A DNA stretch of 64,000 bases from NCBI RefSeq assembly GCF_010731635.1, contig NZ_AP022583.1:1364001-1428000 (forward strand), read 5' to 3'. The notes below the pieces were generated by a model, which did not search any database, was not told the DNA's origin, and saw only the letters and a program-made list of their open reading frames with translations. Origin of the DNA: Mycobacterium noviomagense (GTDB lineage: Bacteria > Actinomycetota > Actinomycetes > Mycobacteriales > Mycobacteriaceae). Positions 32,424 to 46,121 of the stretch are shown here, in pieces. Position 1 is the first letter of the stretch, and every line of letters starts with the position of its first letter. The translations under genes were made by a program, and so were the position numbers.

Positions 32424-32712
32424 CAATCGCCAAGGCAGGCAGTAGTTTCGACCGTGCGGTGACAGTTGCGACGACGAATTCGCCGTCGCGATGCACCTGC
32501 ACCAGCGCCGCGTGTGGTGCGATGCGATGAGCGACGTCGAGCGCGGCCCGCTTATCACCGCGGGCGGCAAGTCGCGCGGCCTCCCGTGCGGCGTCGATGC
32601 AACGCACCTGCATCGACACCGCGGTGAGGCCGGCAACGCAGAGCACCAGTACCGCGACCAGTGAGGCGATCGCCAAAGCCGCCTCGACGCTGCTCGCGCC
32701 GGCATCGTCGAC
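32386..32712 (-). CDS. TadE-family protein (Rv3655c homologue), start codon unclear
   Basis: The TadE signature SSVEAALAIASLVAVLVLCVAGL with the invariant Glu is followed by RCIDAAREAARLAARGD. The conserved start falls at about 32712, overlapping the pilin stop codon. In this frame no ATG, GTG or TTG occurs between the signature and the attL junction; the only internal candidate is TTG 32676, which would remove the key Glu. The frame stays open across attL to an ATG in the element at 32976. Coordinates given are those of the conserved domain. Confidence 0.65.
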   Translation of the reverse strand, partial: VDDAGASSVEAALAIASLVAVLVLCVAGLTAVSMQVRCIDAAREAARLAARGDKRAALDVAHRIAPHAALVQVHRDGEFVVATVTARSKLLPALAIGAEGISAAEAAG

Positions 32713-32843
32713 TAAACCTTGGTGTTCAGCGCGCGAGCGATGATGTTGCTCAACGCGCCGACGATGGAATCGCCGGTGACGACCGTGTAGAGGATCGCGC
32801 CGAAGGCTGCGGCCGCGATGGTGCCGATGGCGTACTCGACTGT
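32712..32843 (-). pseudogene. C-terminal part of the Flp-pilin-like DUF4244 gene (Rv3656c), cut by the integrated element
   Basis: On the minus strand the frame from the junction reads TVEYAIGTIAAAAF, continues through the hydrophobic helix, and ends IARALNTKV-stop at 32712. It continues exactly the reading frame of the N-terminal part at 46045-46121. A TAG lies in the element immediately upstream, so this fragment has no start. The rejoined gene would encode 68 aa or close to it, the size of Rv3656c. Confidence 0.9.
32832..32843 (+). other. attL core of the integrated element
   Basis: GTACTCGACTGT here matches GTATTCGACTGT at 46041-46052 (attR) in 11 of 12 positions; TCGACTGT is identical. 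DNA to the left is host pilin sequence and DNA to the right is element sequence. Confidence 0.85.
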
Positions 32844-33175
32844 CTAGTATTACACCGCATGCCCCAGCGGTCTGCCGATACACCAAAACGGGCTGGTACT
32901 GCGGGATCGACACACGATTCGAGCTAAGAATTCCACAAGTGTTATTACAAGATGTGGTATCTCTTCTGAATGTCACCCACTAGGTGTAGTGTTCTGACTG
33001 CTGAAAGACGCAAACCCTCAACCGGGGGTTGAGTCCCGCCAGTTGAGGGTCCGTGTCGAGCAATTGGCCTTGCAGACGACACGCTACACCGAGGCAGGTC
33101 TGGTGTTGCAATTTCGCACCAGAATGGCGGGCTCCGCGTTTCCTTCTTTCAGCATGGATAGAAGGGAGGCCCTCG
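32844..33175 (+). promoter_or_regulatory. Element left-end leader with competing stems
   Basis: This 332-bp stretch holds no convincing gene. It carries the dyad CACTA-GGTG-TAGTG (32978-32991). At 33014-33050, ACCCTCAAC can pair with GTTGAGGGT or, instead, CTCAACC with GGTTGAG, so two mutually exclusive hairpins are possible ahead of the DUF1883 gene. This resembles a leader with alternative folds. A promoter could not be placed with certainty. Confidence 0.4.
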
Positions 33176-33439
33176 GTGAACTACAACTTCTGGGACCTCG
33201 GTAATCAATCAGCTGGCGCTGTCGTCCGCGTGACGCTCGAAGGCAACGCGGCCAATGTGCGGCTGATGGACAGCTCCAACTATCGCTCGTTTGAGCGTGG
33301 CGAGCAGCACCGCTACTTGGGCGGGCACTACAACCGGTCTCCGGTGGTGCTGCAGGTGCCGAACGATGGCCACTGGTTCGTTGTCGTCGACTACGGCGGG
33401 TACGCGGGCAGTGGGCGGGCTGCGGTCCAGGTGGCTTAG
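33176..33439 (+). CDS. DUF1883-domain protein
   Basis: 87 aa from GTG 33176, with GAAGGGAGG 6 nt upstream. The whole protein is one DUF1883 domain (NYNFWDLGNQSAGAVVRVTLEG, then SSNYRSFERGEQHRYLGGHY and HWFVVVDYGGYAG). This domain occurs alone or fused to TIR domains. Its place at the attL end, transcribed towards the element interior and followed by its own terminator, suggests an accessory (morons-type) gene expressed in the lysogen. The function is unknown; an anti-phage role is only an inference. Confidence 0.75.
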   Translation: MNYNFWDLGNQSAGAVVRVTLEGNAANVRLMDSSNYRSFERGEQHRYLGGHYNRSPVVLQVPNDGHWFVVVDYGGYAGSGRAAVQVA

Positions 33440-33467
33440 CCCGCCGCATCGTAGAAGTTCCAAAGGG

Positions 33468-33501
33468 AAGGCGGCGCTCTCTCTGCGGGGGTGCCGTCTT
33501 T
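33468..33501 (+). terminator. Terminator after the DUF1883 gene
   Basis: AAGGCGGC (33468-33475) pairs with GCCGTCTT (33493-33500), one wobble, followed by a short T run. It separates the DUF1883 gene from the convergent small gene at 33514 and may serve both. Confidence 0.5.
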
Positions 33502-33513
33502 CCATTTGAACGC

Positions 33514-33837
33514 CTAATGCACGACACGTAAGTCCGGCCTCGTCTCCCTCGGTGGGGGCTCGGGAAGATCGCCCAGGCTGCGGTAGACCCGGTGCTCGTT
33601 GGCTGCGCCAGGGGCGGTCAGACGGCGGCGGAACCACTCCGCGATGCCCAAGCCCGCCGCGTTGGCAACGTCGAGCGCCAGGGCAGGGTCCACCATATGT
33701 GCGCGGAGCCACGCTCCGATGGCGGGGAGCCGATCCCTCGGTTCCATGTCCGGGTCTCGCAACTCGTCCGGCAGCGCGTTCGCCAAGGTCTCGATCGACT
33801 GGACCTGAGGCCCTCGCCTCCGCTTCGGTCGCCCCAC
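33514..33837 (-). CDS. Small phage-type protein downstream of the small terminase gene
   Basis: 107 aa. The GTG at 33837 overlaps the terminase TAG by one base (TAGTG), which implies coupled translation; TTG 33858 is an alternative. The N-terminus is strongly basic (GRPKRRRGPQ), followed by a helical middle (IGAWLRAHMVDPALALDVANAAGLGIAEWFRRRL). No domain recognised. Pairing with the small terminase suggests a packaging-related job. Confidence 0.6.
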   Translation of the reverse strand: MGRPKRRRGPQVQSIETLANALPDELRDPDMEPRDRLPAIGAWLRAHMVDPALALDVANAAGLGIAEWFRRRLTAPGAANEHRVYRSLGDLPEPPPRETRPDLRVVH

Positions 33838-34223
33838 TATCGAGTCACCCCGCCCCAACGGGCTTGTGCTCCAAGGCGTCCGAGCTGGCTGCGGGTCATC
33901 TTCCCGCTGCCGGCGGTCTCCTCCTCGTCGGGCAACGTCAGCGACTTCAGCAGCGACGTGAGTAGAGCGCGGTACTGCCGCAGTTCTGCAACCTCGGGGG
34001 CGGCGACCGGCTGCCCCTGCGAACCTTTAACCCTCAGGTCGTCGGCTGCATCCACGATGCTCTGGAGCCGCGCGACGACATCGGCGGTGCGGGCGGCTTG
34101 CTCCAAGATGATGAGCTTCTCTGGGCAGTCGGTGAAGTCGTATGTGGTGTGCAGCTCCCGCCAGAGCTGCCTACCGCGTGTCTTTAGGCCCTTCGGGGCC
34201 TTCGGAATGAGCGGATGTGTCAT
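33837..34223 (-). CDS. P27-family phage terminase small subunit
   Basis: 128 aa. The features are those of P27-type small terminases: LKTRGRQLWRELHTTYDF at the start, a helical EQAARTADVVARLQSIV, the KGSQGQPVAAPEVAELRQYR motif and the SLTLPDEEE close, with a basic Gly/Arg tail. Small subunits choose the DNA to be packaged. No large subunit lies in the element. ATG 34223 has GGAAGGA upstream. Confidence 0.85.
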   Translation of the reverse strand: MTHPLIPKAPKGLKTRGRQLWRELHTTYDFTDCPEKLIILEQAARTADVVARLQSIVDAADDLRVKGSQGQPVAAPEVAELRQYRALLTSLLKSLTLPDEEETAGSGKMTRSQLGRLGAQARWGGVTR

Positions 34224-34851
34224 GTTTCGTGTTCCTTCCGTGGTTGTTGAATCGTTGCTGGGGTGTTCGGGCGCGGACGTGGGCGACGTTTGCTGCGCCG
34301 GGGCAAAAACGCGGGCGATGCCGCCGCATAGGCAGGCGACAGCATTACCGTCCGGTCCAAACGCGGGCGGGCAGGGGCAACCGCCTGGGGTGCGCGGACC
34401 TGTGGCTACCCGGCGGCGACGTGCCGGTATGCGGGTGCTGGCCTCTGCCTAGTGCGGTGCCCAGGGCTGCTTGCCCCGTGCCCTACACCCCACCGACCCC
34501 GGCACCCGCTACCCGAAGGACACGCCTGCCCGGTGTCCCTGCCATACCCCGCGTCCTGCTCCTACCCCAGAAGCACCCTGTCCCTTCCCGTCCTAGCCTG
34601 CCCTGCCTGCCCCTGTCCTGTGCCTCTGCCACTGGGCACCTGGAGGGCCCCGGCACCTGCCGGCCCTGTCTGAGCCCCTGGGGGTAGGGACCGGCTGTGG
34701 CCAAAGGCCCAGGTCAAGGCCGCCGAGTTCACCAGGTGGTCTCGGGTCCCAAACGTAGTCTTTGGGCGTAGAGTGAAGGTCAACGGCGACACCACTTCCA
34801 GAAGCCGTTGTGTTGATTTATCTAGTGCAGTGAAAGGTCAAGTGAGAAGCA
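34224..34851. other. Gene-free C-rich spacer
   Basis: Nothing here reads as a gene on either strand. From about 34440 to 34690 the plus strand is strongly C/T-rich (many CCCTG and CCTGCC units) and poor in CpG compared with flanking DNA. The distal part (34790-34850) is AT-richer and should hold the promoter of the HTH gene. Open frames through this stretch are Pro/Arg-rich and lack ribosome-binding sites. Confidence 0.6.
34565..34589 (-). other. G-quadruplex motif
   Basis: On the minus strand four G runs (GGG, GGG, GGG, GGGG) are separated by loops of 2, 3 and 7 nt, which meets the canonical G3+N1-7 rule. It lies in the spacer upstream of the minus-strand small terminase gene. Confidence 0.6.
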
Positions 34852-35442
34852 ATGATTGATCTCACGCTCGAGGTTTCCGGTCTGCGAATGCAGCTGGGCA
34901 CCTCAAACGACGAATGGCTCGAAGACCGGCGTCAGCTTCTGGCGTTCATCGACTTCATCGACACACAGGTGGACGTGATCGATGAGGAGGAGGAGCAGGA
35001 GGAGGAGGAGGACGAGGAGGAAGCCGAGGCGTGCATACATCCTCGGGTCTATGGTCCCGACAGTGATCGGGAGGGCATCTGCGTGGTGTGCGGTGAGTTG
35101 GATCCCACCTATGAGTTCGCCGCCGCCGAGGTTGAGGCCCCCACCGCCGCCGAGGTGGAGGCCCGCAACCAACCCGCCGTTGTCGAGCCGATCAAGCGCC
35201 GTCCGGTCCGGGAGTTCGATCCGATCGAGGTGCTCGCCAAACATCTCCCGATCGCGATGCTTCTGGTCAAGAGGGGCATGATGACACGAAACCAGATGGC
35301 CGAGAAGCTTCACGTGAGCCCGGGCACAGTTAGCGCCAGCCTCAATTACCTGTCGGGCAAGGGCCTCGTACAGCGAGTTGTCGGCAGCCGCTATTGGCAG
35401 GCCACCGCCAGCGCCAAGGCGCACCAGCTTGTGGCGGCATAA
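34852..35442 (+). CDS. Winged-helix DNA-binding protein with acidic tract and zinc-finger-like motif
   Basis: 196 aa. The C-terminal 70 residues form a winged helix (MTRNQMAEKLHVSPGTVSASLNYLSGKGLVQRVVGSRYW). Ahead of it is a cluster C-H-C-C (ACIHPRVYG then CVVCGE), possibly a zinc site, and an unbroken run of acidic residues at about 44-59 coded almost wholly by GAG/GAA triplets. It is the only plus-strand gene in the middle of the element, so a regulator role is likely. Confidence 0.7.
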   Translation: MIDLTLEVSGLRMQLGTSNDEWLEDRRQLLAFIDFIDTQVDVIDEEEEQEEEEDEEEAEACIHPRVYGPDSDREGICVVCGELDPTYEFAAAEVEAPTAAEVEARNQPAVVEPIKRRPVREFDPIEVLAKHLPIAMLLVKRGMMTRNQMAEKLHVSPGTVSASLNYLSGKGLVQRVVGSRYWQATASAKAHQLVAA

Positions 35443-35502
35443 CCAGTGACGGGAACACGGCGCGGATGTCGATGAGGCGCAACTTCGTATCGGTCTAGAT
35501 CG

Positions 35503-35901
35503 TCATCCGCTCGCCTTGATGGTTCCGCTGCCGCCGGCCAGGGCAGCTCGGAGCACAGCGGCGCCGTTGAGCGGCATGTGCTGGGACGGTGCCTGGTTCG
35601 CCTGAGCCAGAGCCGCAGCGAGGAGACCGGCTGCGGTCTGCGGTGCCGGGCTGGCTTCAGCCTTGCGGAGTTCCCCGGCCCGGCGCTCAAGCTCCTGCAT
35701 ATCGCGGAAGTAAGCCAGCACACGCTCTCGCCATTCCCGATCGGGGTCTACCGGGTCGGGCATCCCGGCAACGTCGCCGACTATGCCCCGCTCCTGTAGT
35801 CGCTTGGTGAATGCGATCGCCGCTGCCTCGTCTGCGTTGTCGTACTCGGGTTGGGTGGCGGCGAGCTGCGCCGCCAGCTTGCGGGCTGATCCTGTGGTCA
35901 T
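35503..35901 (-). CDS. Hypothetical phage-type protein
   Basis: 132 aa, starting MTTGSARKLAAQLAAT behind GAAGGA. The content is helical, rich in Ala, Glu and Arg, with a short coiled coil (DMQELERRAGELRKAE). No domain recognised. It lies downstream of the 253-aa gene in the same direction. Confidence 0.6.
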   Translation of the reverse strand: MTTGSARKLAAQLAATQPEYDNADEAAAIAFTKRLQERGIVGDVAGMPDPVDPDREWRERVLAYFRDMQELERRAGELRKAEASPAPQTAAGLLAAALAQANQAPSQHMPLNGAAVLRAALAGGSGTIKASG

Positions 35902-36001
35902 CTCGCGGTGGTTCCTTCTGTCGCGGTGGGGATGTGAGGGTGGGGCCGGAAACGGCCCACAGCGTTGAGCTGAGGGCCATTCCAGACGGAGGTGTAGCCC
36001 G

Positions 36002-36763
36002 CTACCGGGCGGACAGCACGCGCTGTGCTTCGATGGCCTGCCGGATCGCGGCGCCTTCAGCGGGTGTGTTCAGTCCCCACTCGACGTTTTCACGGACGGC
36101 GACGACGAACAGCGGGTTGAGCTGGCCGTAGTGCTCGTACCGCTTAGTGCCCGCGTTCTCCAGCTTGTCGAGCTGGTCGAGGTCGACCGGGCGCAGCACG
36201 CGGGTGAACGCATCGACCCGCCCGGCGATACCGGGCAGCTCTCGCAGCGAGGCAATCCATCCGTCGCAAGAGGCGATGACCGCTTGCGCCCGCGCGGCGC
36301 GCTGATACTCGGCCAGCACAGCCGGACCGCCCCGGACGATCGCGGCGTCGGAGAGGTCGTCGGGCAGTGCCAGGACGGCCTCGGTGAACTCGGCAACGGC
36401 CGCGTCGAATCGTGGTTCCAGTTGCTTGATGATGCCGGGCACGGCTGCTCCCGCCTTGGTGAGCACGTCGCGGGCCGCAAGGTTCAACGCCTGCCGTTTG
36501 GCAGTTTCCAGCGCAGACAAGTCGGTGGCACCGACGCGGGTCGCAATTCCCATCGTCGGCAAAAGCTGATTGGCTAACTCGCGGATCTTCTCTTCGACGT
36601 TGTCGGGTGTCACGTCCGTAATGCCGAACACGACCGGGTGTCCGGTCTCAACGAGGCGGATCGCGTCGAGCACTTCGACGGCGCGGGCAAGTTCTTTCGG
36701 TAGCTTCACGCCAAGCGCCGTCCATCCCGCTACGGAATTGGCGATGTAGATGGGATCGAACAT
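36002..36763 (-). CDS. Hypothetical protein downstream of the origin
   Basis: 253 aa. ATG 36763 has a strong ribosome-binding site (GAAGGAGAT). The protein is almost wholly helical, with no catalytic motif. It is the first gene after the origin region on the side opposite to the primase-polymerase, so a structural, regulatory or replication-accessory role is possible. I do not recognise the family. Confidence 0.65.
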   Translation of the reverse strand: MFDPIYIANSVAGWTALGVKLPKELARAVEVLDAIRLVETGHPVVFGITDVTPDNVEEKIRELANQLLPTMGIATRVGATDLSALETAKRQALNLAARDVLTKAGAAVPGIIKQLEPRFDAAVAEFTEAVLALPDDLSDAAIVRGGPAVLAEYQRAARAQAVIASCDGWIASLRELPGIAGRVDAFTRVLRPVDLDQLDKLENAGTKRYEHYGQLNPLFVVAVRENVEWGLNTPAEGAAIRQAIEAQRVLSAR

Positions 36764-36869
36764 GTTTAGATATCTCCTTCGGTTGTTAACGCGCCGGCGG
36801 ATGTGCCGGTCGCGTTGAAAGAACCCGCCAGCGGGTGCTGACGGGATAGTGGTGGTGTAGATATCCGGG

Positions 36870-37184
36870 GTGGACGGTGGACCGCTTGGTGGACGCCTGA
36901 AAGTGGCTCTGACCAGGAGTGGACGGGTGGACGGGCGTCCACCCAGACTGGCGAACGAGCGAACAAACTCCGCCGGGCGGCGGATATCACATTGAGTGTG
37001 TATTCGCAGCTAGTTATATATAAGTAAATATACTAACTATTTTATACCCGCTGCGAAAGCGAACTGCGTCCTAATACCGCCCGCGAGACGCCGTCCCCGC
37101 GCCGACCAGTGGACGGGCGTCCACCCGTCCACCCCAGGTCAGGCAGTGTTTTACCCGTCCACTTTGACCGTCCCGGCGTCCACC
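36870..37184. other. Putative replication origin: iterons and nested inverted repeats around an AT-rich core
   Basis: GTGGAC-type repeats occur at 36870, 36877, 36889, 36919 and 36927 in one orientation; on the other side CGTCCAC-type repeats lie at 37118-37133, 37157 and 37178. Two perfect palindromes with GG centre are seen: 36925-36944 and 37109-37124. Between them is an AT-rich stretch (37011-37046), bounded by TTCGCAGC (37003-37010) and GCTGCGAA (37050-37057), and itself starting TAGTTA and nearing its end with TAACTA. This is the layout of an iteron origin with an unwinding region, directly next to the primase-polymerase gene. Confidence 0.75.
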
Positions 37185-39256
37185 CCTTGGGTGAGCCGGT
37201 ACCAGTCGTCACCTGTACCGACGACTTCGCCGGACTCGATCAGGTAGTCGAGCGCCAGCTCGAAGTAGTCAGCTCTCCACTGTGACTTTAACGCCCGCCG
37301 CAGATCGCTGCGTGTGATGCCGGTCGGATGCCGGTGCAGCTTGCGCCGCAGCACGTCGACCTGGCGCTGAAGGCGTGCGGCGTCCTCTGCTTCGGCAGCG
37401 GCTTCGGCGCGTAGACCCTGATCCTCGCCGGCCAGCTTCGCCGTCGCCCTGCTGCGCTCAGCTATCGCCCGCTGGGCAGCCTCGCGTGTGCGATCGGACA
37501 TCGCCATCACCACACCGGCCAGGTTCCAATCGGACTCCCTGACCGATTCGTGATGACCGTTCAGCACCGCTAGGGCGTAGGCCACCTTCACCTGTGCGTA
37601 GAGCCGGTGCCCGTCCAGGGCGTCGGCATCCCCACGCATCCCGCGCTTGCGGGCCTCCCGCATCGCCCGCTTCGCCGCGCCGCAGACCTCGACTCTGAGC
37701 ATCACGGGAACAACGGTCCGGCCCAGTGCGCCGGGATGATCCGGCTCGGTATCCGGCGGAGTGTCGTTGGCCGGGAACCACACGAACCGCTGCGCCTGCC
37801 CGGTGGACACCGACTCCGACGACAAAAGCAAGTGCGCGTTGTCGTACTGCACCGACGCCAGCGCGCACAGCCGGTACGACCCTGCCTCGACGGTGACGTT
37901 CTTCGACTCATCGACCGTTGTAAACCCCAGCGCGCCATCGGTGAACGCTGTGCACAGCCGTTGCATCAGCGTCGAGCCGGTGCGGCTCGCCGACGCCTTC
38001 AGCGATCCCAGCTCATCGGCGTAGACCACGGCCGCGTCACGAATCCACCTGTCGACGTATTCACCTTCCTCTTTGACCCGCGAGGCGAACAACCTCGGAA
38101 TCGCTTCGCCGGAAGCGACTTCGGTGGTGTGCACGGAACTAGGCCACAGGTGTTGCGCCGCTCGGTTGGCGATACCTTTGCCGCCTCCCGACCTGGCTGC
38201 CAGCACGGCGTAGAAGTTCAGGCCACCCGAGTAAGGGCCGTTCACTCCGGTGTCGAGCCGCACGCTGGGCGGCACGTCGGCCAGCACCCGCACCAACAAC
38301 GCGCCCAGCACCGCCCACGGCGAGGCCAGCTCGGCGTGTGCCGCCTGCCGGATATGCGCCAGCTCGGGCCGTGCATCCCAGAACGTGCTGAGCCTGCCCT
38401 CTGCCGTCCAGTACAACGGGTTCTCCGGTTCGGCGCGCTTCCATGCCGACCGAATCCAGTTCTCGATCTGCTGGGGATCATCGCCGCCCGACTCGTCGTA
38501 GGCGGCTGTGATCTTGCCGTTGATCGTCTCGGCGTCGAATCCCAGCGTCTTGGCGATACCGACAATCCGAAGCGTCTGCCGCCCCGCTGCGTTGCGCTCA
38601 CCCGCACCGGCCGCTGCAATCACCGCCAATTTCTCTGCGATGATCCGCTCGCCAGCTTCACGCTGTTCTGGCGTCACGTCCGCCGGCTCCGCGACGACGG
38701 CCACGTCGTCACGAGTGCGAGTGCTGGTGCCGACCAGACGCTTCGCCAGCTCGGCGGGAAACTCGGGCAGTTCCCAAACAGATACTCCCCGCGAACCGTC
38801 CGCCTGCCGGTACGCACCGCCACCGGGAAGGACGGTGCCCGGCGCGAACACGTTGCCGCCGGACGCCCGAATATCAACACCCACCATGCCCAAGACGTTG
38901 GCACCGCTGCGGACTTCGGTGTCCTCGGGCGCCCGGTAATAGAAGTGCCGGCCACCCGATTGGGTGGCGATCACCAGGGGCGTGGACGGCAGCTCGACCC
39001 CGGCGGCTTCCAGCGACTCGAAACCGTTCTTGCCGTGGCTGGTGTCGATGTCGACGACGACAAGCCCGCTCAAGCCGGTGTTGATGGCGATGGCATCCCA
39101 CCCGGCCCAATCGGCGGGATCTTCGAACACCCGCCGGGACCAGTCGCTCGGGTAGCTCACTCGTTTCTTGCCGTTGCCGTCCAACTCGACGCTGGCCGGT
39201 GTGCAGCAGTAGCCCAGCGCGGCGTACTGCTGAACCCGGTCGAACATCTCGGTCAT
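37151..39256 (-). CDS. Bifunctional primase-polymerase with DUF3987-like helicase domain
   Basis: 701 aa. The N-terminal 180 residues are an archaeo-eukaryotic primase domain: motif I VVDIDTSHGK (Asp69, Asp71), motif II SGGRHF (100-105) and motif III GVDIRASGGN (126-135). The middle is an ATPase with Walker A ARSGGGKG (Lys360) and Walker B VVYADE (Asp414-Glu415), as in DUF3987 proteins. A winged helix (ITRSDLRRALKSQWRADYFE) closes the protein. One protein can thus prime and unwind, and the origin lies just past its stop codon. Confidence 0.85.
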   Translation of the reverse strand: MTEMFDRVQQYAALGYCCTPASVELDGNGKKRVSYPSDWSRRVFEDPADWAGWDAIAINTGLSGLVVVDIDTSHGKNGFESLEAAGVELPSTPLVIATQSGGRHFYYRAPEDTEVRSGANVLGMVGVDIRASGGNVFAPGTVLPGGGAYRQADGSRGVSVWELPEFPAELAKRLVGTSTRTRDDVAVVAEPADVTPEQREAGERIIAEKLAVIAAAGAGERNAAGRQTLRIVGIAKTLGFDAETINGKITAAYDESGGDDPQQIENWIRSAWKRAEPENPLYWTAEGRLSTFWDARPELAHIRQAAHAELASPWAVLGALLVRVLADVPPSVRLDTGVNGPYSGGLNFYAVLAARSGGGKGIANRAAQHLWPSSVHTTEVASGEAIPRLFASRVKEEGEYVDRWIRDAAVVYADELGSLKASASRTGSTLMQRLCTAFTDGALGFTTVDESKNVTVEAGSYRLCALASVQYDNAHLLLSSESVSTGQAQRFVWFPANDTPPDTEPDHPGALGRTVVPVMLRVEVCGAAKRAMREARKRGMRGDADALDGHRLYAQVKVAYALAVLNGHHESVRESDWNLAGVVMAMSDRTREAAQRAIAERSRATAKLAGEDQGLRAEAAAEAEDAARLQRQVDVLRRKLHRHPTGITRSDLRRALKSQWRADYFELALDYLIESGEVVGTGDDWYRLTQGVDAGTVKVDG

Positions 39257-39492
39257 TCGGAGATGTCCTCGACCACCGAAGCGACCTCAGCCGTTTGCAG
39301 ACTGACGCGCTCTCGGTCCATAAACCCACGGCCCTGCGCCTCGAAGGACACGCACGGCACATAGCCGTCCTCGTGCTCAGCAGCGCCCGTAAATACCGAA
39401 CCCTCTTGGAAAGTGCCGGGAATCACCCGGTAAACCCACCCTTTGCGAGTCGTGACGGTTTTGACCTTTGAAGGGTCCTTGACCAGATTCAT
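39253..39492 (-). CDS. Small hypothetical protein coupled to the primase-polymerase
   Basis: 79 aa, beta-rich (WVYRVIPGTFQEGSVFTGAAE and YVPCVSFEAQGRGFMDRERV). Its TGA overlaps the ATG of the primase-polymerase (ATGA), so the two are translationally coupled. It follows the hairpin array. No family recognised. Confidence 0.65.
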   Translation of the reverse strand: MNLVKDPSKVKTVTTRKGWVYRVIPGTFQEGSVFTGAAEHEDGYVPCVSFEAQGRGFMDRERVSLQTAEVASVVEDISE

Positions 39493-39528
39493 CTTGTTTT
39501 ACTCCATTCTTTTCATTGTGTTGTGTCA

Positions 39529-39805
39529 CAACCACCTTCGGGTGGTTGCGTCAGCTCTCAGCTCGACGCTGAGGGCCTAACGGACACCGGGCGGTGTTCC
39601 GAGTATCGGGAGACGCCTACGGGCGTCTGAGGGTCCGCGAGGGCACCTGCTTGAGGGCCTACGGTCCTCGACGCTTTTGGGCACTCGCTACGCGAGAAAC
39701 CCCCGACCCGCCCAAGAGGAGAGGCAAGGACGAGCCGGGGGCCTCGGGGTAGGCCAGCCCGGAGCTGGCCTGAGGGGACGACCCCACCCGGAGCAGGGGC
39801 GTCCC
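39529..39805. repeat. Array of eight consecutive hairpins
   Basis: Perfect or one-wobble stems occur in order at 39529-39548 (8 bp, TTCG loop), 39557-39573 (6 bp), 39584-39597 (6 bp), 39611-39628 (7 bp, TACG loop), 39653-39669 (7 bp, one wobble), 39684-39696 (5 bp), 39751-39771 (8 bp) and 39775-39805 (two nested stems). The sequences differ but the geometry repeats. The array fills the gap between two minus-strand genes; it may be a structured leader RNA, a single-strand initiation site or a packaging signal. Confidence 0.7.
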
Positions 39806-39818
39806 GGTCTATGTGCGC

Positions 39819-40025
39819 TTAGCCGAGAGCCTTGATGCGCTCGGCCAGCTCCTCGGGGGTGATGGCCTCCAGAGCGCGGACCAGCTCGACGGCCTCACGG
39901 TTACGGTGGTGACGCCGGGCGTCATTCAGCCGTTTGCACTTGCGGCAGAACCCCTGGGCGGTGCGGGCTGTCGCTGTCGGTGTCGGATGCCCGTGTGGGC
40001 AGTGTGTGGCGGTGTGGTTCGCCAT
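39819..40025 (-). CDS. Small zinc-ribbon-like phage protein
   Basis: 68 aa. A Cys-His/Cys-Cys pair (HCPHGHP and FCRKCKR, about 18 residues apart) can hold one zinc, followed by a basic helix and a Leu-rich C-terminal helix. ATG 40025 has AGGAGGG at 8-10 nt. Small zinc proteins of this kind are common in actinophages; the role is unknown. Confidence 0.65.
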   Translation of the reverse strand: MANHTATHCPHGHPTPTATARTAQGFCRKCKRLNDARRHHRNREAVELVRALEAITPEELAERIKALG

Positions 40026-40211
40026 GTGGCCCTCCTGTGCTTATCCGTGCGGATGGGTTGGTTGAAAAAAGAGCCGGCCCCGAGGGCGGGGCCTGTTTCG
40101 GTGTGTGTGTGGGTTGACAACGGTCACGCGGTTGGCGTACCGTCGTCATTGGTGGCCGAAAATGACGGCCGTTTTGCCGTGCCCTCCCACACTTATGGAG
40201 AAAACCGGACA

Positions 40212-41264
40212 TCAGCAGGTCAGGATACTTTTTAGGGTATCCGTCCACCGCGCCGGGGTCGGAACCATCGCCGGACGGCCATGCACCACCGATTGCCGCC
40301 ACCTTTGACCCGGATGGAAGCGGCGCACCGATCGTGGCGTAGGTCTCGCCGGATACACGGCGTTGACGCACCACGACGTGGAGAACCCACGCATGATCCC
40401 GTGCCGCACTTCCAGCTCACGACTGGCCTTGCGTTTCCTAGGTCGCCGTTGCGTTGGTCGATCCACTGGCCGGACATAGCGGCCCGGATACCGGGCCGCG
40501 TTGAGTCCGTCCCGGCGGGCCGGTGGCTCGGCGCCACCGATGAGCCATGTCTTCGTCGGGGTGATGTACTCGACGTTCTCGTACCGCCGGGCCACCATGA
40601 CCGGATGCTTGATGTTCAAACCGCCCAGCCCGTCCGGCCCCGCTGGGACCAACGTCGGCCACGGTTCGTGGATGACCATGCTGTGGGGATCACGCGGATA
40701 CTTCCTGACGCCGTCAGCAAGGCGACGTTTCCGGGCCTTCCGGTCAGCGTCAGCTCGACGCCTACACGTCGCGCCGCAGTACCGGGCCTTGTCCGGGAGT
40801 GCAGGCAGCCCGCCTTCGTCGTCGTTGATGCCCCGCTTGATCAAGACCTCCCAGCAGATCGAGCAGCGAAGCTGCACCATCGACCACCGCCCCTCGGGTA
40901 CCGCTGCCGGTATCCCGGTGATCCGGGTCGCCTCCTCGTCCCGCTCCCGGTTCAGCCACGTAAGCCGGACGCTCGTCCAATCCCGGCCCTCATGGATCGC
41001 CCCGACATGCCACGTCTCGCCCTCGTCATGCGGCTGCGGCAGCCGATGAACCTTCTCCGCGTCGCCGCGTTTGAGCGGTCTCTTGCTGCCGTAGTACCAA
41101 TCCGGCTGTCGCCGGACGCGGGACTGTTCGGTGAGGTCGTCGTCCTCGCCCCAATCGCGCTCGCGCTTGTCGATCTTGCGACCAGCGGTCAGTACGTGAT
41201 CGGCGTTGACGATCCCGGTCTCCGGGTGCCGTGCTTCGCGGGACTCGAACTCGTGGCGGGTCAT
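40212..41264 (-). CDS. Hypothetical protein with central treble-clef-like Cys cluster
   Basis: 350 aa. The central region has CSICWE and, 25 residues on, YCGATCRRRADADRKARKRR, which look like a zinc-binding unit followed by a basic helix, as in HNH-like or DNA-binding phage proteins. The last 100 residues are unusually Arg/Pro-rich, so the end is less certain. ATG 41264 overlaps the stop of the next gene upstream (ATGA), which supports the start. Confidence 0.6.
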   Translation of the reverse strand: MTRHEFESREARHPETGIVNADHVLTAGRKIDKRERDWGEDDDLTEQSRVRRQPDWYYGSKRPLKRGDAEKVHRLPQPHDEGETWHVGAIHEGRDWTSVRLTWLNRERDEEATRITGIPAAVPEGRWSMVQLRCSICWEVLIKRGINDDEGGLPALPDKARYCGATCRRRADADRKARKRRLADGVRKYPRDPHSMVIHEPWPTLVPAGPDGLGGLNIKHPVMVARRYENVEYITPTKTWLIGGAEPPARRDGLNAARYPGRYVRPVDRPTQRRPRKRKASRELEVRHGIMRGFSTSWCVNAVYPARPTPRSVRRFHPGQRWRQSVVHGRPAMVPTPARWTDTLKSILTC

Positions 41265-41584
41265 TCCGGCGTCCCGTAGCGCGGCTCGTAGAGCGCCAAT
41301 TCAGCCTCGCCGAACATCATGTGATGGTCGGGGATCACCTGCGAGTCGATCTGGATGGCGCCGCCGATGTGGTCGAGCATCCGCTCGTACATCGGATGCG
41401 AGGCCCGAAGTAGCGGGCTGCGGTAGACGAACTGCCAGCTAGTCAATTCGCCTTCAAGCTCGGTGATCCGGCCGACGTACAACCAGCACGGCTCGCAGAT
41501 GCCCATCGTGACCGCATCGCCGTTCAATATGTCGATGGTCGGAAGGTTGGGGGCGGTGTTACCCGCCCCCTTGATCCCGGTCAT
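41261..41584 (-). CDS. Hypothetical phage-type protein
   Basis: 107 aa. It has ICEPCWLYVGRITELEGELTSWQFVYRS and an acidic C-terminus. It overlaps by 4 bp with the genes on both sides (ATGA at 41581-41584 and 41261-41264), forming one three-gene coupled unit. No family recognised. Confidence 0.6.
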   Translation of the reverse strand: MTGIKGAGNTAPNLPTIDILNGDAVTMGICEPCWLYVGRITELEGELTSWQFVYRSPLLRASHPMYERMLDHIGGAIQIDSQVIPDHHMMFGEAELALYEPRYGTPE

Positions 41585-41790
41585 CGGTTTCTCAGTCTTT
41601 CGCTGGGCGGCACGTACAGCGACTCAATTGCCGATTCAGGGACCATGGCCTTGAAGGTGACCATCCCATCCACCACTTTGAGAGATCCCATCTTCGCCAT
41701 CACCAGCAGTCGGTGATCTTGGGCTTGATCGGTGTCCAGAAAGACGCCCGAGACTTGGGAATATCTAGCCTTCGGATCGTTGATCCTCAT
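41581..41790 (-). CDS. Small protein, first gene of the leftward early operon
   Basis: 69 aa from ATG 41790, which has AGGAG 8 nt upstream; the frame is open further but without a ribosome-binding site. Sequence MRINDPKARYSQVSG, a central LLVMAKMGSLKVVDGMVTFKAM and a basic end. Its size and place (first leftward gene opposite the regulator) are those of many excisionase or control proteins, but nothing in the sequence proves it. Confidence 0.6.
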   Translation of the reverse strand: MRINDPKARYSQVSGVFLDTDQAQDHRLLVMAKMGSLKVVDGMVTFKAMVPESAIESLYVPPSERLRNR

Positions 41791-42023
41791 TGCGTTATCT
41801 CCTGTTTGTTCGGTGGCAGCGATTCCCCGCTGCCCTGGGTCGCCCAATTCGGGCCTGTTGCTGATCTGCGCGTATTCCAGGGCCTGCTTAGTCCCGAGGG
41901 TGCGAGTGACGGGCTCCAGTTCGCTTGTCGCCCGACTGCCGTTGACGGGCTTCTGGTGCCGGTCGTCCGGCCTCACGTCTTCCGACCACGCCGTTGTGAT
42001 CGACACTTGCAGTGAAGCATGTC

Positions 42024-42050
42024 GTCTAACCGGTTTTCAAGAGGTTAGAC
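42024..42050. promoter_or_regulatory. Operator-like dyad GTCTAACC-n11-GGTTAGAC
   Basis: A perfect 8-bp inverted repeat lies in the 289-bp gap between the leftward operon (first ATG 41790) and the rightward regulator gene. Its right half overlaps a -35-like TTAGAC (42045-42050), spaced 16 bp from a -10-like TATGCT (42067-42072). This would start transcription near the ATG at 42080, possibly as a leaderless mRNA. Confidence 0.5.
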
Positions 42051-42079
42051 CAGCGGGTGGGCATGTTATGCTGCTTGAC

Positions 42080-42619
42080 ATGGAACCGAGGGTGACGTTG
42101 TCCGAGGAGATCGGCCCACAAGGCGAATGGACGGCGGAGATGACCTGGTACGACGACGACCGGCGCGGACCGAGTCAGGTAGTGATTCGGCCAACCGACC
42201 CCGACAAGCGCCCGGCAGGCGGATTGTCATCGACGGTCCTGCGTGAAGTGGACTTCGCGGCGGCGGTAGATGCTGTGCGAAAGATCGAACAACACCCGGA
42301 CCTGGAGATGGTGATCGACTTCGCGACCGTAGGCGGCGAGCTGCGGGAGCTTTCGGCTCGCGGTCTTACCGATGAGTACCTCGTGTGGCTCTCGTTCGTT
42401 TACTGCGCCGCCAGCCAAGAGAAGCCCGACAGTGGGCCGGTCGAATACCTTGCCGAGATCACCGGCAAGTCACCGGCCGCGATCAAGAGTCACCTGTGGC
42501 ACGCAAGCCGTAATGGCTTCCTGATCCGCACGCCGGGGCGGCGTGGTGGGCAGATCACCGATAAGGCCCGTGCTGCGCTTATGCCCCCCAGCGGTAGAAA
42601 CGTCACGTCCGAAACTTGA
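42080..42619 (+). CDS. HTH regulator-like protein of the element
   Basis: 179 aa from ATG 42080 (ATG 42068 is possible). The C-terminal region reads as a HTH: GPVEYLAEITGKSPAAIKSHLWHASRNGFLIRTPGRRGGQIT. The N-terminal half is beta-rich (VTLSEEIGPQGEWTAEMTWYDDDRRG). Divergent from the leftward operon across an operator-like dyad, it is the best candidate for the element's repressor. Confidence 0.65.
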   Translation: MEPRVTLSEEIGPQGEWTAEMTWYDDDRRGPSQVVIRPTDPDKRPAGGLSSTVLREVDFAAAVDAVRKIEQHPDLEMVIDFATVGGELRELSARGLTDEYLVWLSFVYCAASQEKPDSGPVEYLAEITGKSPAAIKSHLWHASRNGFLIRTPGRRGGQITDKARAALMPPSGRNVTSET

Positions 42620-42668
42620 CAACGAACGGTCTCCAGACAGGTCGACTGCCTCACTATGATCCCTGCCT

Positions 42669-43403
42669 ATGCCGGTCGCTAAGGAGGAAATCCTCGAAGA
42701 GATTCGACGATGCGCCGCTGAGAACGGCGGTGTCCCGCTGGGCCGCCAACGGTTCATGGCTGAAACCGGGATCAAAGAGAGCGATTGGCGCGGGCGCTAC
42801 TGGGTCTCTTGGAGCGATGCCATCGCTGAGGCAGGCCTTCAGCCAAACTCGATGCAGAGCCGCCGACACGAAGACGAATACATCTTGCGACGCATGGCTC
42901 TGCTTGCTCGGAAGCTCGGTCGATTCCCCACCGAGGCGCATCTGAGGTTGGAACGCCGGTCTGACGATAGTTTCCCGAGCTGCGGTAGCATCCGGGCGCG
43001 GCTGGGCGACAAGTCCGCACAGCTCGCGCGGCTTCGCATCTTCACAGAGACCGAACCCGATCTCGCAGACGTAAATGAACTATTAGCAACGAACGTCGCG
43101 GATGATGAGCCGGAACCCTCTCAATCGTCGATTTCGACACACCCCAATGGCGTTGTCTATCTGATCAAATCCGGGCGATTCCACAAGATTGGACGGTCAA
43201 ACCACGTCGGTCGGCGGTCGTACGAGATAGGGCTTCAGTTGCCCGAGAAGTACGTCCTGGTCCACTCGTTCGAGACGGACGACCCCGCCGGCATCGAACG
43301 CTACTGGCACGACCGATTCAAGGACCGTCGCCGAAACGGCGAGTGGTTCCTGCTGTCCAAGGCTGACGTAGCGGCGTTCAAGCGCCGACGTAGGTTCATG
43401 TAG
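42669..43403 (+). CDS. GIY-YIG endonuclease (T5orf172/MUG113 type) with homing-endonuclease-associated repeats
   Basis: 244 aa. Two N-terminal repeats (KEEILEEIRRCAAENGGVPL and the EYILRRMALLARKLGRFPTE unit) resemble homing-endonuclease-associated repeats that bind DNA. The C-terminal 90 residues are a GIY-YIG-type domain: GVVYLIKSGRFHKIGRS, the Arg in VGRRSYEI and the catalytic Glu in GIERYWHDRF. ATG 42669 follows CTAAG-GAGG-type sequence weakly. It lies 49 bp after the regulator. It could be a homing or anti-competitor nuclease. Confidence 0.75.
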   Translation: MPVAKEEILEEIRRCAAENGGVPLGRQRFMAETGIKESDWRGRYWVSWSDAIAEAGLQPNSMQSRRHEDEYILRRMALLARKLGRFPTEAHLRLERRSDDSFPSCGSIRARLGDKSAQLARLRIFTETEPDLADVNELLATNVADDEPEPSQSSISTHPNGVVYLIKSGRFHKIGRSNHVGRRSYEIGLQLPEKYVLVHSFETDDPAGIERYWHDRFKDRRRNGEWFLLSKADVAAFKRRRRFM

Positions 43404-43505
43404 TCGGCCACCGGTCATCCTTTGCCGAAATCTGACAACGAACGGAAGGACGGAATGACAAATGACGACCGAACAGGAACATGCTGACCGAACGCTCTGT
43501 ACGCC

Positions 43506-43652
43506 ATGGGCTACCACCAAGCGGCCAAGAGTAAGCCCAGTTCCACCGAGGCTGAGCGAAAGGCATTCGGCAACCTGTACGCGGATAAGTACGCCGTGGA
43601 GGGACTGACCCCCGCCGAAGCGTGGAAGGTTTATGCAGCCGAAGAGAAGTAG
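43506..43652 (+). CDS. Possible 48-aa phage protein
   Basis: Open frame from ATG 43506 to TAG 43652, reading YHQAAKSKPSSTEAERKAFG then YAVEGLTPAEAWKVYAA. The amphipathic composition and codon use are plausible, but there is no clear ribosome-binding site. It overlaps the 3' end of the convergent gene at 43631 by 22 bp. Confidence 0.4.
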   Translation: MGYHQAAKSKPSSTEAERKAFGNLYADKYAVEGLTPAEAWKVYAAEEK

Positions 43653-44101
43653 GTCTCCAGCTCCGCTGTTGCGGCGAGAATTTGTGCACGACGAACCTGT
43701 ATTGCCTTCGCCGCACCATCACCCCACTTAAGCGCCCAAGTGAGAAAGTCACCAACATCGGAAACGTTCTCTATCTGCCCCGCGCACTCTCGCAAGTCGG
43801 CGTACTCCGCCATCGTCAACTTCCCGAGCTTCTTTACGGGTACCGCCACCCGTCGATCGTCTGTCAGTTGCACGATGGCATCGGTGTGCATAGCTATCCG
43901 TCGGTAGAGCTCCGAGAACGTCTGGTCGATGAACGTCTTGAGTTCGATGGCCCAGCGTTCGATGCGCTGGAACTCGTCGGAACCTGCCACATTCTCAAGC
44001 CGTGGGCTTCGCTGAAGAAGCGATAACTTTGACGGCAGCTCGTGCAAGGTGCCTAGTAGGCCGAACACGTGCGATTTCAGGTTGTTGTTGTCGTTGGTCA
44101 T
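43631..44101 (-). CDS. Hypothetical helical protein
   Basis: 156 aa from ATG 44101 (an in-frame ATG at 44170 would add 23 residues). It is mainly helical with a coiled-coil-like middle (IERWAIELKTFIDQTFSELYRRI). No domain recognised. It is the only gene between the nuclease and the integrase, on the integrase strand. The 248 bp upstream of it, to the integrase stop, hold no recognisable feature. Confidence 0.55.
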   Translation of the reverse strand: MTNDNNNLKSHVFGLLGTLHELPSKLSLLQRSPRLENVAGSDEFQRIERWAIELKTFIDQTFSELYRRIAMHTDAIVQLTDDRRVAVPVKKLGKLTMAEYADLRECAGQIENVSDVGDFLTWALKWGDGAAKAIQVRRAQILAATAELETYFSSAA

Positions 44102-44349
44102 GTCGTTGCAATTCCGAGGTCGGTTGTTTCCAGGGCGTGGGTTCACGTCCCTCGGCATCAACGGTGGCACACGGGACCGACAATCCTTCGCAACGACACG
44201 GCAACACGCCGGGGTTCTTATGCGGTTTCTAGACTGCGGTGCGTTATAAGCCGCTCACTGCGCCGAAAACCAACCCTGCGCCGTCAGCGTCGCGCCGCGA
44301 CCGTGAGCCAGCGCGTCCCTGATCTGCTTCTCCGCCGGTAAGAACCGGC

Positions 44350-46017
44350 TCACACCGTGTGCAGCTCATCAGCCGACACCGTAAGGCCCGACGCATGATG
44401 GAACACGATGTCATCGCCGTTGACTTCCATTCCAGCAATGCCGTTATCCCGCATCGCGGTTAGCAGTTCTTGCCAGCCGGCCACAGGCTGACCACTGGCG
44501 TTCATCTGCTCCGTCAGCTTGTACACGTCGCCCAAGATGAGATTCACTCCTTCGTGGTCGAACTCAAGGCGGACATTCATCGAACGGAGCCAGACGTTAC
44601 GACCTGTGATGTCCTGACGCGCCCACCAATCGCCGAACTTCTCGCCGGTGGGCTTCCACGTCCACCCGGCCGGCTTCACGGTCTCCTTGGACAGCTTCTC
44701 TTGGCGGGCGGCAAGCTCGGTGATCCGGTGGTTGAGCCGAACTCGCTGGGGAGTCCCTGCCTTGAACTCACCCGTACCGAGCAGGTCCACTAGGTCGGCA
44801 AGCGTTGCGTCAACTTCGGCCAGCTCGGATGAGTAATCCGAGCCTGATTCCCATTCACGCTCAAGACGTTCGGAGCCACCGAGCAATCCCAGGATGACGG
44901 TCTCGACGCGCTTGTCCGCGTAGTCCAGCGGTACCGACTTGTTCCCGCACGTCGTCTTGTACTGAGCCGACGCACAGCGGTACCGGGGCTTACGCCCGGT
45001 GCCGCCCTTGAGCCGGTATGCGGGCTTCCCGCACACGCCGCAGTAGATGACTTGGAGTAGTAGCGCGCTGCTGCGCTTGGTCGGCTCCTTGCGATTCTCC
45101 CGGTCGGCCAGCTCTGCGCCGAGCCGATCGAATATCTCTCGGGTGATGATCGGGTGAGCCCGGACCACGGGCGAGCCGTCATCGTTGCGGACGACCTTCT
45201 CGGGTCCGAACGCCTTCCGTCCCTTGGTGTCACGCTGTACGCGGCCCTGAGCGTCGGTGAGCGGTTCCCTAGTCACCACGTACCCGAGCAGCGTCGGAGA
45301 CGTGAGAGAGCGTTTAAGCGGGCTGGAGTGCCACTCGTAGCCCTTGACCTCACGTCCCTGAGTCTGTGCGAAGCGATCCTTCGGAGTGAGCACACCGCGA
45401 GCGGACAAGTCGTGGGCAATCGCTCGCAGTGGCTCCCCATCCAGCACACGACGGGCAACCTCGTTGATTACCTCGACCTGTACCGGATCTTGGACGAGTC
45501 GCCACATACCGGACTCGTCCTGCTGAGGCAGGTAACCCCACGGCGGTATGCCGCCGCGGTACTTGCCGGCCTTGAAGTTGTGCCGGAACGCTGAGGCGTT
45601 GCGCTCGGAGATGGCCGACAGTTCCATCTCGGCAACCTTCGCCACCAACAAGGCGATGATGTCACCGAAATCGGTGGAGAGGTCGAAATACGTCTCCGTT
45701 GCCGATACCAGCGTGACAGAGTGTTCACGCGCCCACCGGATGAGGTCGGCCAGGTCGAACAACCTGCGGACGATGCGGTCAGCCCGATAGAACACGAGCA
45801 CGTCGAACTCGCCGAGGCGATTCGACAGCCAGTCTCCGAGCTGCGGCCGGCCAAACGGCGAGGTGGACCCGGCGGATACATCTAGGTCTTCCGCGATGCC
45901 AACGACCTCGTAGCCGCGCTGGTCGCACAGGTCACGGCAAGTGTCGAGCTGGCGTTCCGGTGAGGTAGTAGCGTCGGTGACTCGGGAGAGGCGGACGACG
46001 ATCAATGCTCTAGGCAT
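44350..46017 (-). CDS. int: Large serine recombinase (integrase)
   Basis: 555 aa. Catalytic domain: VVRLSRVTDATTSPERQL with Ser11, then YRADRIVRR. A recombinase domain follows (REVKGYEWHSSPLKRSLTSPTLLGY), then a zinc ribbon with four Cys (YCGVCGKP and RCASAQYKTTCGN) and a coiled-coil (residues about 420-460), as in Bxb1, phiC31 and phiRv1 integrases. ATG 46017 lies 28 bp from the attR core; the frame is open further upstream but that is host DNA. In the lysogen it lies directly downstream of the pilus genes. Confidence 0.95.
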   Translation of the reverse strand: MPRALIVVRLSRVTDATTSPERQLDTCRDLCDQRGYEVVGIAEDLDVSAGSTSPFGRPQLGDWLSNRLGEFDVLVFYRADRIVRRLFDLADLIRWAREHSVTLVSATETYFDLSTDFGDIIALLVAKVAEMELSAISERNASAFRHNFKAGKYRGGIPPWGYLPQQDESGMWRLVQDPVQVEVINEVARRVLDGEPLRAIAHDLSARGVLTPKDRFAQTQGREVKGYEWHSSPLKRSLTSPTLLGYVVTREPLTDAQGRVQRDTKGRKAFGPEKVVRNDDGSPVVRAHPIITREIFDRLGAELADRENRKEPTKRSSALLLQVIYCGVCGKPAYRLKGGTGRKPRYRCASAQYKTTCGNKSVPLDYADKRVETVILGLLGGSERLEREWESGSDYSSELAEVDATLADLVDLLGTGEFKAGTPQRVRLNHRITELAARQEKLSKETVKPAGWTWKPTGEKFGDWWARQDITGRNVWLRSMNVRLEFDHEGVNLILGDVYKLTEQMNASGQPVAGWQELLTAMRDNGIAGMEVNGDDIVFHHASGLTVSADELHTV

Positions 46018-46018
46018 G

Positions 46019-46035
46019 GGTGTAAACCCTACACC
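46019..46035. promoter_or_regulatory. Dyad GGTGTA-AACCC-TACACC in the attP arm
   Basis: A perfect 6-bp inverted repeat lies between the integrase start and the crossover site. TACACCGC also occurs on the other side, at 32851-32858, so both arms of the excised attP carry it. Likely uses are integrase binding or control of int. Confidence 0.45.
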
Positions 46036-46121
46036 GCCGAGTATTCGACTGTGGACATTCCTGACTCGTCGACCGCCAGCAGGGTCATCCGTGCTTGCAG
46101 CGCGCGAAACAGTTTGCGCAT
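46029..46121 (-). pseudogene. N-terminal part of the Flp-pilin-like DUF4244 gene (Rv3656c)
   Basis: ATG 46121, preceded by GGAAGGA, reads MRKLFRALQARMTLLAVDE-SGMSTVEY. It then runs into the element (SAV) and stops at TAG 46029, giving 30 aa. The G-x4-EY pilin processing pattern (GMSTVEY) is just retained, while the hydrophobic helix is on the other fragment. The host part is 46045-46121. It is the fifth gene of the tad-like operon. Confidence 0.9.
46041..46052 (+). other. attR core of the integrated element
   Basis: GTATTCGACTGT, with element DNA to the left and host pilin sequence (GTGGACATTCC onward) to the right. The single mismatch with attL (T for C at position 4) lies left of the crossover, which places the exchange within TCGACTGT. 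Confidence 0.85.

Follow-up and report, generated by a model that had tools for sequence, protein, structure and literature searches.

Several described phage satellites resemble the element analysed here. SaPI1 makes CpmB, which shares a C-terminal RIIK motif with the scaffold of phage 80alpha, competes for the scaffold's site on the capsid protein and makes heads small (PMC5644958). In mycobacteria, Abad et al. (2023) defined candidate phage-inducible chromosomal islands (PICIs) by an integrase plus a major capsid gene, SatelliteFinder being used as well, and described induction and transduction of these candidates as still to be determined (PMC10654092). We analysed a 64,000-nucleotide stretch of Mycobacterium noviomagense (NZ_AP022583.1, 1,364,001 to 1,428,000; hereafter the window), which holds an integrated element of 13.2 kb at window positions 32836-46052 (contig positions 1396836-1410052; G000:C1). 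An initial annotation had described it as a PICI-like satellite with no structural genes. With a probability of roughly 0.7, we read it as a satellite that depends on cluster A-type (HerbertWM- or Peaches-like) siphoviruses as helpers, remodels their capsids and packages its DNA from a cos site of its own; it would thus probably spread by stealing and reshaping cluster A-type phage shells. The most telling features are the cos site, the gene pair g253-g132 and the scaffold-like tail of g132, all of which lie beyond the initial annotation.

Like the candidate PICIs and phiRv1/phiRv2 treated in that survey (PMC10654092), the element is small, integrated in a Mycobacterium and equipped with an integrase, and some of those candidates also have replication and terminase genes. 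They need a capsid gene by definition, whereas the element has none: a scan of its 16 proteins against Pfam and PHROGs gave no capsid, portal, protease, large terminase, tail or lysis family, and the small terminase subunit (TerS) was the sole packaging or virion family. The absence of recognisable structural genes claimed initially thus holds for all 16 proteins, and the element does without the full structural gene set of a phage. The integrase-plus-capsid criterion of the survey would pass over a class of this kind.

The nearest described kin of the element were found through TerS (33837..34223, minus strand, 128 aa; phrog_1496, 2.7e-19, with no Pfam match), a gene that the initial annotation had rightly identified. 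The protein matches 23 phage records, namely 10 Mycobacterium phages, one Bifidobacterium phage and 12 M. aichiense records, each about 11 kb long (OR387110-OR387121), with 43% identity to the TerS of Bernal13 and 42% to that of the M. aichiense records. Three of the 12 were examined (Anya, JSForest2, Alyssa1). They carry genes for TerS, adaptor, stopper, serine integrase, scaffold, capsid and a short tape measure, and neither a large terminase nor a portal is annotated; by this gene content we read the M. aichiense records as satellites, which the records themselves do not state. The TerS, integrase, GP70-like and HNH-like proteins of the element match those of the three records. The two kinds also share a mycobacterial host and a related TerS beside the same cos motif, and they are close in length, at 11 kb for the records and 13 kb for the element. 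The module of scaffold, major capsid, adaptor, stopper and short tape measure is theirs only; the element has instead a primase-polymerase (Prim-Pol) and g253-g132. The E. coli satellites of PMC10448857, as described there, have capsid and tape measure genes, which the sister mycobacterial satellites also pair, whereas the element itself has neither. In an open-access library, which lacks most subscription papers, none of the matches listed had a title or abstract opening that dealt with satellites of M. aichiense, with a helper from cluster A or with mycobacterial satellites that remodel capsids.

A single sequence just upstream of TerS marks both ends of the three M. aichiense records (...CCCCAGGGGGCTACCCCCTCCACCCCGGTCCT / CGACCGGTCGGTTATGCGG... 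in Anya). For the Fromanvirus HerbertWM, which was isolated on M. aichiense, the record ends at ...CCCCAGGGGGGTACCCCTTCCCCCGCCTATCTCGACCGGTCGGTTA / TGCGGGTG, and a like motif is found at the record ends of the Backyardiganvirus Peaches. Cluster A is the group of L5 and Bxb1; both HerbertWM and Peaches belong to it and have 10-base 3′ overhangs at their record ends. The cos region of another satellite (locus L081) matches 181 phage records, 169 of them from Mycobacterium; all 34 Mycobacterium phages among the 40 matches listed align no more than 2 bases from the right end of the record. An independent link to such a helper is suggested by other proteins of the sister satellites, whose tape measure, adaptor, stopper and tail terminator are 27-63% identical to those of HerbertWM over the aligned pieces.

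In the window, the cos-like site (34342..34390, minus strand) reads CCCCAGGCGGTTGCCCC, 16 bases, GACCGGACGGTAATGC, and ends 118 bp before TerS. The 16-mer consensus has a single occurrence in the 64 kb, an exact match at 34342-34357; in viral contigs, the exact 16-nt pattern was found in 77 stretches. We also built a position weight matrix (28 nt, 13 sites, no g253 element included; L080 gave no anchor), with which the site scored 21.2 bits and the runner-up in the window 9.7. In the seven other loci with g253, described below, the best hits scored 18.8 (L107), 25.5 (L117), 25.4 (L118), 26.0 (L119), 12.2 (L120), 18.3 (L121) and 24.1 (L122), each lying downstream of g132 and before TerS, an HNH gene or a stopper. 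A helper-like cos inside the island is likewise described for the cos-type PICI EcCICFT073; this island lacks TerS (PMC6092414), whereas the element has one.

The helper might belong to another group of cos-type siphoviruses, Bernal13 and prophi91-3 being examples whose TerS is similar: the element's TerS is 41-43% identical to theirs and shows no detectable relation to its cluster A counterpart. We consider this improbable. The exact cos pattern is absent from the parts of these phages that were examined (the first 20.7 kb of Bernal13 and 34.7 kb of prophi91-3), their scaffolds lack the PLNG tail described next, and cos and scaffold tail both point to cluster A-type phages.

g132 (35503..35901, minus strand, 132 aa), a predicted scaffold mimic, ends in PLNGAAVLRAAL. 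Its family of 63 proteins has the C-terminal consensus PLNGAAVLRAALaGG; PLNG is present in 56 of the 63, against 0.10 expected in shuffled members, and 51 fit PLNG..[IVLM][LM].A. Of the 1223 open reading frames (ORFs) called in the loci, 10 contain PLNG, 8 of which are g132-type (one locus counted twice), and the strict tail pattern is found in 5, all g132. No PLNG was found in the called ORFs of the 11 capsid-encoding loci. Scaffolds of the cluster A type end in PLNGDP(I/L)LDAL. We aligned 13 of them, that of HerbertWM and 12 picked for spread among the best 60 of 688 similar records from Mycobacterium, Gordonia and Rhodococcus phages: PLNG is present in 11 of the 13, and [PA]LNG..[IVLM][LM].[AI] stands near the C-terminus in 12. 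When the full alignments of g132 and of the scaffolds were compared with hhalign, tail was set on tail (P 0.0011). With HerbertWM removed from the satellite alignment, the scaffolds of the capsid-carrying satellites show a relation to the cluster A set (97.5% probability across 39 columns), yet their ends differ, which would fit scaffolds that work with a capsid protein of their own; no relation and no tail match was found between them and g132.

The capsid-redirecting role proposed for g132 is drawn from the parallel with CpmB and the 80alpha scaffold tail. SaPI1, too, has its own TerS and a small helical protein with a C-terminal motif common with a helper scaffold, RIIK there and PLNG..IL.A here (PMC5644958). 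The motif and the gene set differ, the element having a cos site, a serine integrase and a Prim-Pol. Capsid binding is shown for SaPI1 and is proposed here for g132.

Several observations weigh against our reading. For the cos site, the 16-mer pattern was composed after the site in the window had been seen among others; with up to 2 mismatches, 0.22 occurrences are expected by chance and a match arose in 20 of 100 shuffles. The best scores of 15 simulated windows ranged from 10.1 to 19.7 bits, one reaching the latter value, and the cos-like site of L120 attains only 12.2. A blastn search with the element's own cos region hit no phage end, giving 11 weak hits elsewhere. The satellite TerS and cluster A TerS are not detectably related (hhalign probability 0.3%, with two cluster A sequences). 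As for the tail, PLNG is missing from 7 of the 63 g132 proteins, the scaffold of HerbertWM itself reads ALNG, and no such tail is present in one of the 13 scaffolds. The match between g132 and scaffolds covers 13 columns with an hhalign probability of 20%, and the structure model of g132 is of low confidence (predicted local distance difference test score, pLDDT, 65). A search of the host genome with three families, PF05119, PF05065 and PF03354, found no resident helper, the ability of the latter two to detect cluster A proteins being unchecked. Induction, a circle, packaging and particles are predictions from the sequence.

g253 (36002..36763, minus strand, 253 aa), located just upstream of g132 in the direction of transcription, serves as the family marker. 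Its AlphaFold2 model (pLDDT 81) is almost all helix, unlike the HK97 coat, and fold searches with it gave no clear match. Of the 11 g253-like proteins returned by a protein search, one is a fragment of g253. The size of the family is taken from an alignment-based genome search, which found g253 in 8 of 297 genomes of the genus, host included; the seven other loci were fetched. Searches with degenerate patterns in the genome-contig and viral-contig sets gave no confirmed relative. The 8 loci share an order: a match to the regulator, then a replication gene, a tape measure gene or one without known family, g253, a g132-type protein and the cos-like site. The place before g253 is taken by a helicase-like 322-aa protein in L117, with homologues in L119 and L122, and by a tape measure in L107 and L121. 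After cos comes TerS (the element, L107, L120, L122), an HNH gene (L117-L119) or a stopper (L121). The integrase adjoins the regulator in 6 of the 8 loci, lies at the far end in L117 and was not found in L118. A family test that we propose, namely a g253 homologue, a small protein with an LN(G/S) tail downstream of it and a cos-like site, applies to 8 of 8 elements, 7 of them with PLNG; in L120 the 104-aa protein ends in GLNSDAVLRRALGI, its tail being judged by eye. In L085 (G077:C124, 3110-6474), a Prim-Pol 50% identical to that of the element is followed by a 269-aa protein whose C-terminus looks g253-like by eye, and this locus is possibly a distant family member.

The g253-g132 pair occupies the place that scaffold and capsid genes take in related satellites. 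The two were never seen together in a fetched locus: neither satellite capsid nor satellite scaffold was matched in any of the 8 g253 elements, and g253 was not matched in the 11 capsid-encoding loci. PF05065 is found in 3 of the 7 other g253 genomes, yet never inside their g253 elements; in the host genome its only match lies 2.2 Mb from the element. TerS itself is matched in 28 of 148 relative genomes (host included), and the 24 fetched TerS loci comprise 11 with a satellite capsid, 3 of ordinary phage type, one (G009) with g253 and 9 with neither by this test; 5 of the 29 TerS places other than the element's own (G099, G033, G014, G002, G037) fall outside the fetched set. In a tree built from the integrases of 7 g253 and 10 capsid-type elements, the module labels require 5 changes, at least 4 of which are forced by well-supported branches, and the element's integrase falls in a supported group of four with two of each module type. 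Shuffled labels gave a mean of 5.6-5.7 changes, about as many as the 5 observed. The tree carries a warning of long branches for L121 and the L120 group, and it does not include L118, where a serine integrase was not found, L067, L073 and L080 (missed by the ORF filter) or L075. Because at least 4 module changes are forced, the g253-g132 and scaffold-capsid modules appear to replace each other repeatedly upstream of cos.

These relatives bear on whether the element is a decayed prophage, or a decayed capsid-encoding satellite, that has lost its capsid genes. L071 and L078, close integrase relatives at the same insertion site, do carry capsid genes, so ancestors of the element may have had them. 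Even so, we regard decay as very improbable: the 16 genes all read as open frames, g253-g132 fills the capsid place, as it does in 7 other genomes with cos kept, and the forced module changes show that this state recurs. The satellite, as opposed to a decayed prophage, seen by the initial annotation is therefore upheld by a recurrent element of similar gene order. The satellite half of "PICI-like" is supported, and membership of the PICIs proper goes beyond what the data show.

A satellite of cluster A-type phages could also do without capsid remodelling, filling full-size helper heads, perhaps with a head-to-tail concatemer, while g253-g132 is otherwise employed. Four times 13.2 kb comes close to the 51.5 kb of HerbertWM. 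PICMI satellites pack concatemers. In a published abstract they are described as lacking capsid remodelling genes. A scaffold-tail mimic could, moreover, simply poison helper assembly. This alternative seems to us unlikely, though the most serious of those weighed here: the position of g253-g132 at the scaffold and capsid place of the kin suggests that the pair does a capsid job, and the three M. aichiense records examined are of unit length.

On the preferred reading, a capsid-remodelling satellite of cluster A-type phages, the element would lie silent in the chromosome under its divergent regulator (42068-42619). Upon helper infection it would be excised by the serine integrase, for which enzyme and site are observed, and replicated by its own Prim-Pol, putatively from the repeats near 36.9 kb. 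g253-g132 would then act on the helper capsid protein, the PLNG..IL.A tail of g132 competing with the helper scaffold and redirecting assembly, probably towards smaller heads. The element's TerS would bring the helper large terminase to the cluster-A-like cos for cleavage, and helper shells and tails would carry the satellite DNA. Related satellites would use their own scaffold and capsid genes for the same problem. Helper identity, the pairing of TerS with the large terminase, excision, replication, capsid binding and the change of head size are all predicted steps in this scheme.

We lean, by a modest amount, towards a broader proposal: that these elements form an unrecognised mycobacterial satellite family exploiting cluster A phages, capsid-less, with a cluster-A-like cos and an unrelated TerS, in which g253-g132 remodels the capsid, the g132 tail evolved independently of SaPI CpmB, and, within one pool of satellites, modules that carry a capsid change places with modules that steal one. 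For mycobacterial PICI-like elements, cluster A is now named as a helper group that can be tested, along with a packaging site and a candidate capsid-binding tail. If the proposal is true, capsid theft by scaffold mimicry has two origins, in distant bacterial phyla, and a capsid-less class escapes any survey whose definition of a satellite includes a capsid gene. It may also bear on the use of phages against mycobacteria, as satellites can lower phage yield.

The borders given initially proved right, since the flanks are two halves of one gene that is intact in relatives. The 8-bp repeat ACAGTCGA is present at both ends on the minus strand as an attachment core: the distal copy (32836..32843) joins the 3′ half of a DUF4244 gene (32712-32843), and the integrase-proximal copy (46045..46052) joins the 5′ half (46045-46121). 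By itself the repeat is insignificant, as other words of 8 to 10 bp are also shared in a comparison of the borders. Read on the minus strand, the last bases of the left flank are ...ATGTCCACAGTCGA and the first of the right flank ACAGTCGAGTACGCC...; joined, the flanks give one small gene of 201 bp between the T2SSF genes and the TadE/Tad genes of the tad locus. The joined gene has a match in 45 of the 61 genomes searched. The match is continuous across the junction in 32 of 36 other genomes of the genus, and the host has two halves only; of the remaining four, G024 has a shorter match only, the site is occupied in G027, and G005 and G013 gave no match. An intact homologue (from G029) is a Flp-pilin-like DUF4244 protein (PF14029, 2.7e-23). 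Because the joined gene is continuous in these 32 genomes and only halved in the host, the insertion breaks a conserved pilin-like gene, and carriers may be without Tad pili. The same gene is the insertion site of the elements of L119, L071 and L078. The element thus has the attachment sites and integrase of an integrated satellite, and its use of one gene along with three others agrees with the unique, specific attachment site named as a PICI feature in the abstract of PMC6092414. That abstract also names exclusive PICI genes, induction by a phage, a conserved organisation of the replication origin and specific packaging into phage-like particles; on the last two counts the element has a Prim-Pol with repeats close by, in place of which L117, L119 and L122 have the helicase-like protein, and a cos-like site with TerS.

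The integrase is a large serine enzyme (44350..46017, minus strand, 555 aa; PF00239/PF07508/PF13408; phrog_95, 1.3e-119), in agreement with the initial annotation, and is 69-73% identical to the integrases of L071, L078 and L119. It is followed by a 179-aa protein of no confident family (43631..44170, minus) and, on the plus strand, by a 244-aa MUG113/T5orf172 (GIY-YIG-like) protein with an HNH_repeat (42669..43403). The MUG113/T5orf172 family is tied to the PLE capsid repressor CapR in PMC10448857. The divergent regulator described initially is a helix-turn-helix protein of 183 aa (42068..42619, plus; phrog_11473, 9.6e-45) with homologues in L117-L119 and L122. The main operon, on the minus strand, starts with a 141-aa protein without known family (41581..42006; homologue in L122), a 107-aa GP70-like protein (41261..41584; PF17429, also in the three M. 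aichiense records), a 350-aa protein without known family (40212..41264), a 68-aa HNH-nuclease-like protein (39819..40025; phrog_826, 1.6e-5) and a 79-aa protein without known family (39253..39492).

Of the replication unit postulated initially, the Prim-Pol, with a helicase-like C-terminus, is there (37151..39256, minus, 701 aa; PF09250, 1.1e-22; phrog_28894, phrog_11515); the origin amounts to nearby repeats of putative role, in an intergenic stretch (36764..37150) with direct repeats GGGTGGACGG and a 34-nt inverted repeat at 36909-36942/37109-37142. Beyond g132 lie a winged-helix regulator found by domain scan (34852..35442, plus, 196 aa) and, past TerS, a 114-aa protein without known family whose gene overlaps that of TerS (33514..33858, minus). 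The DUF1883 gene noted initially is confirmed (33053..33439, plus; PF08980, 8.2e-26) and is a possible cargo. It is 67% identical to a copy in L117 (5472-5741), another g253 element at a different integration site. PADLOC defence models run on 10 element proteins gave weak matches only, for the 196-aa regulator, and a 'near'-mode search with the whole element DNA in phages and plasmids gave no match.

A few further observations were made in the fetched loci. The short tape measures of the satellites are 602-701 aa long (L001 8079-10034, L107 10721-12826, L121 7565-9373), against 807 aa in HerbertWM, and satellites with one may also reset tail length. They sit at the place of the Prim-Pol, and we considered whether the M. 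aichiense 'tape measure' is a misannotated replication protein; its match to phrog_305 (3.9e-190) rules this out. The HNH genes after cos are endonuclease VII/HNH-like (L117 12354-12704, L118 6576-6848, L119 12404-12841), and at the left end of HerbertWM, too, HNH is followed by TerS. L066 has a lone TerS gene (10046-10387), 65% identical, among genes that also flank the element of L117; it is probably a satellite remnant.

The host genome contains a second small element at about 3633785-3639800 of G000:C1 (L134 4785-10787). Judged by eye, its protein of 375 aa resembles a tyrosine integrase; with it come a small helix-turn-helix protein, one of 361 aa and one of 460 aa, the last overlapping the only PF05065 match of the genome. 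Relatives of the first three are present in L082.

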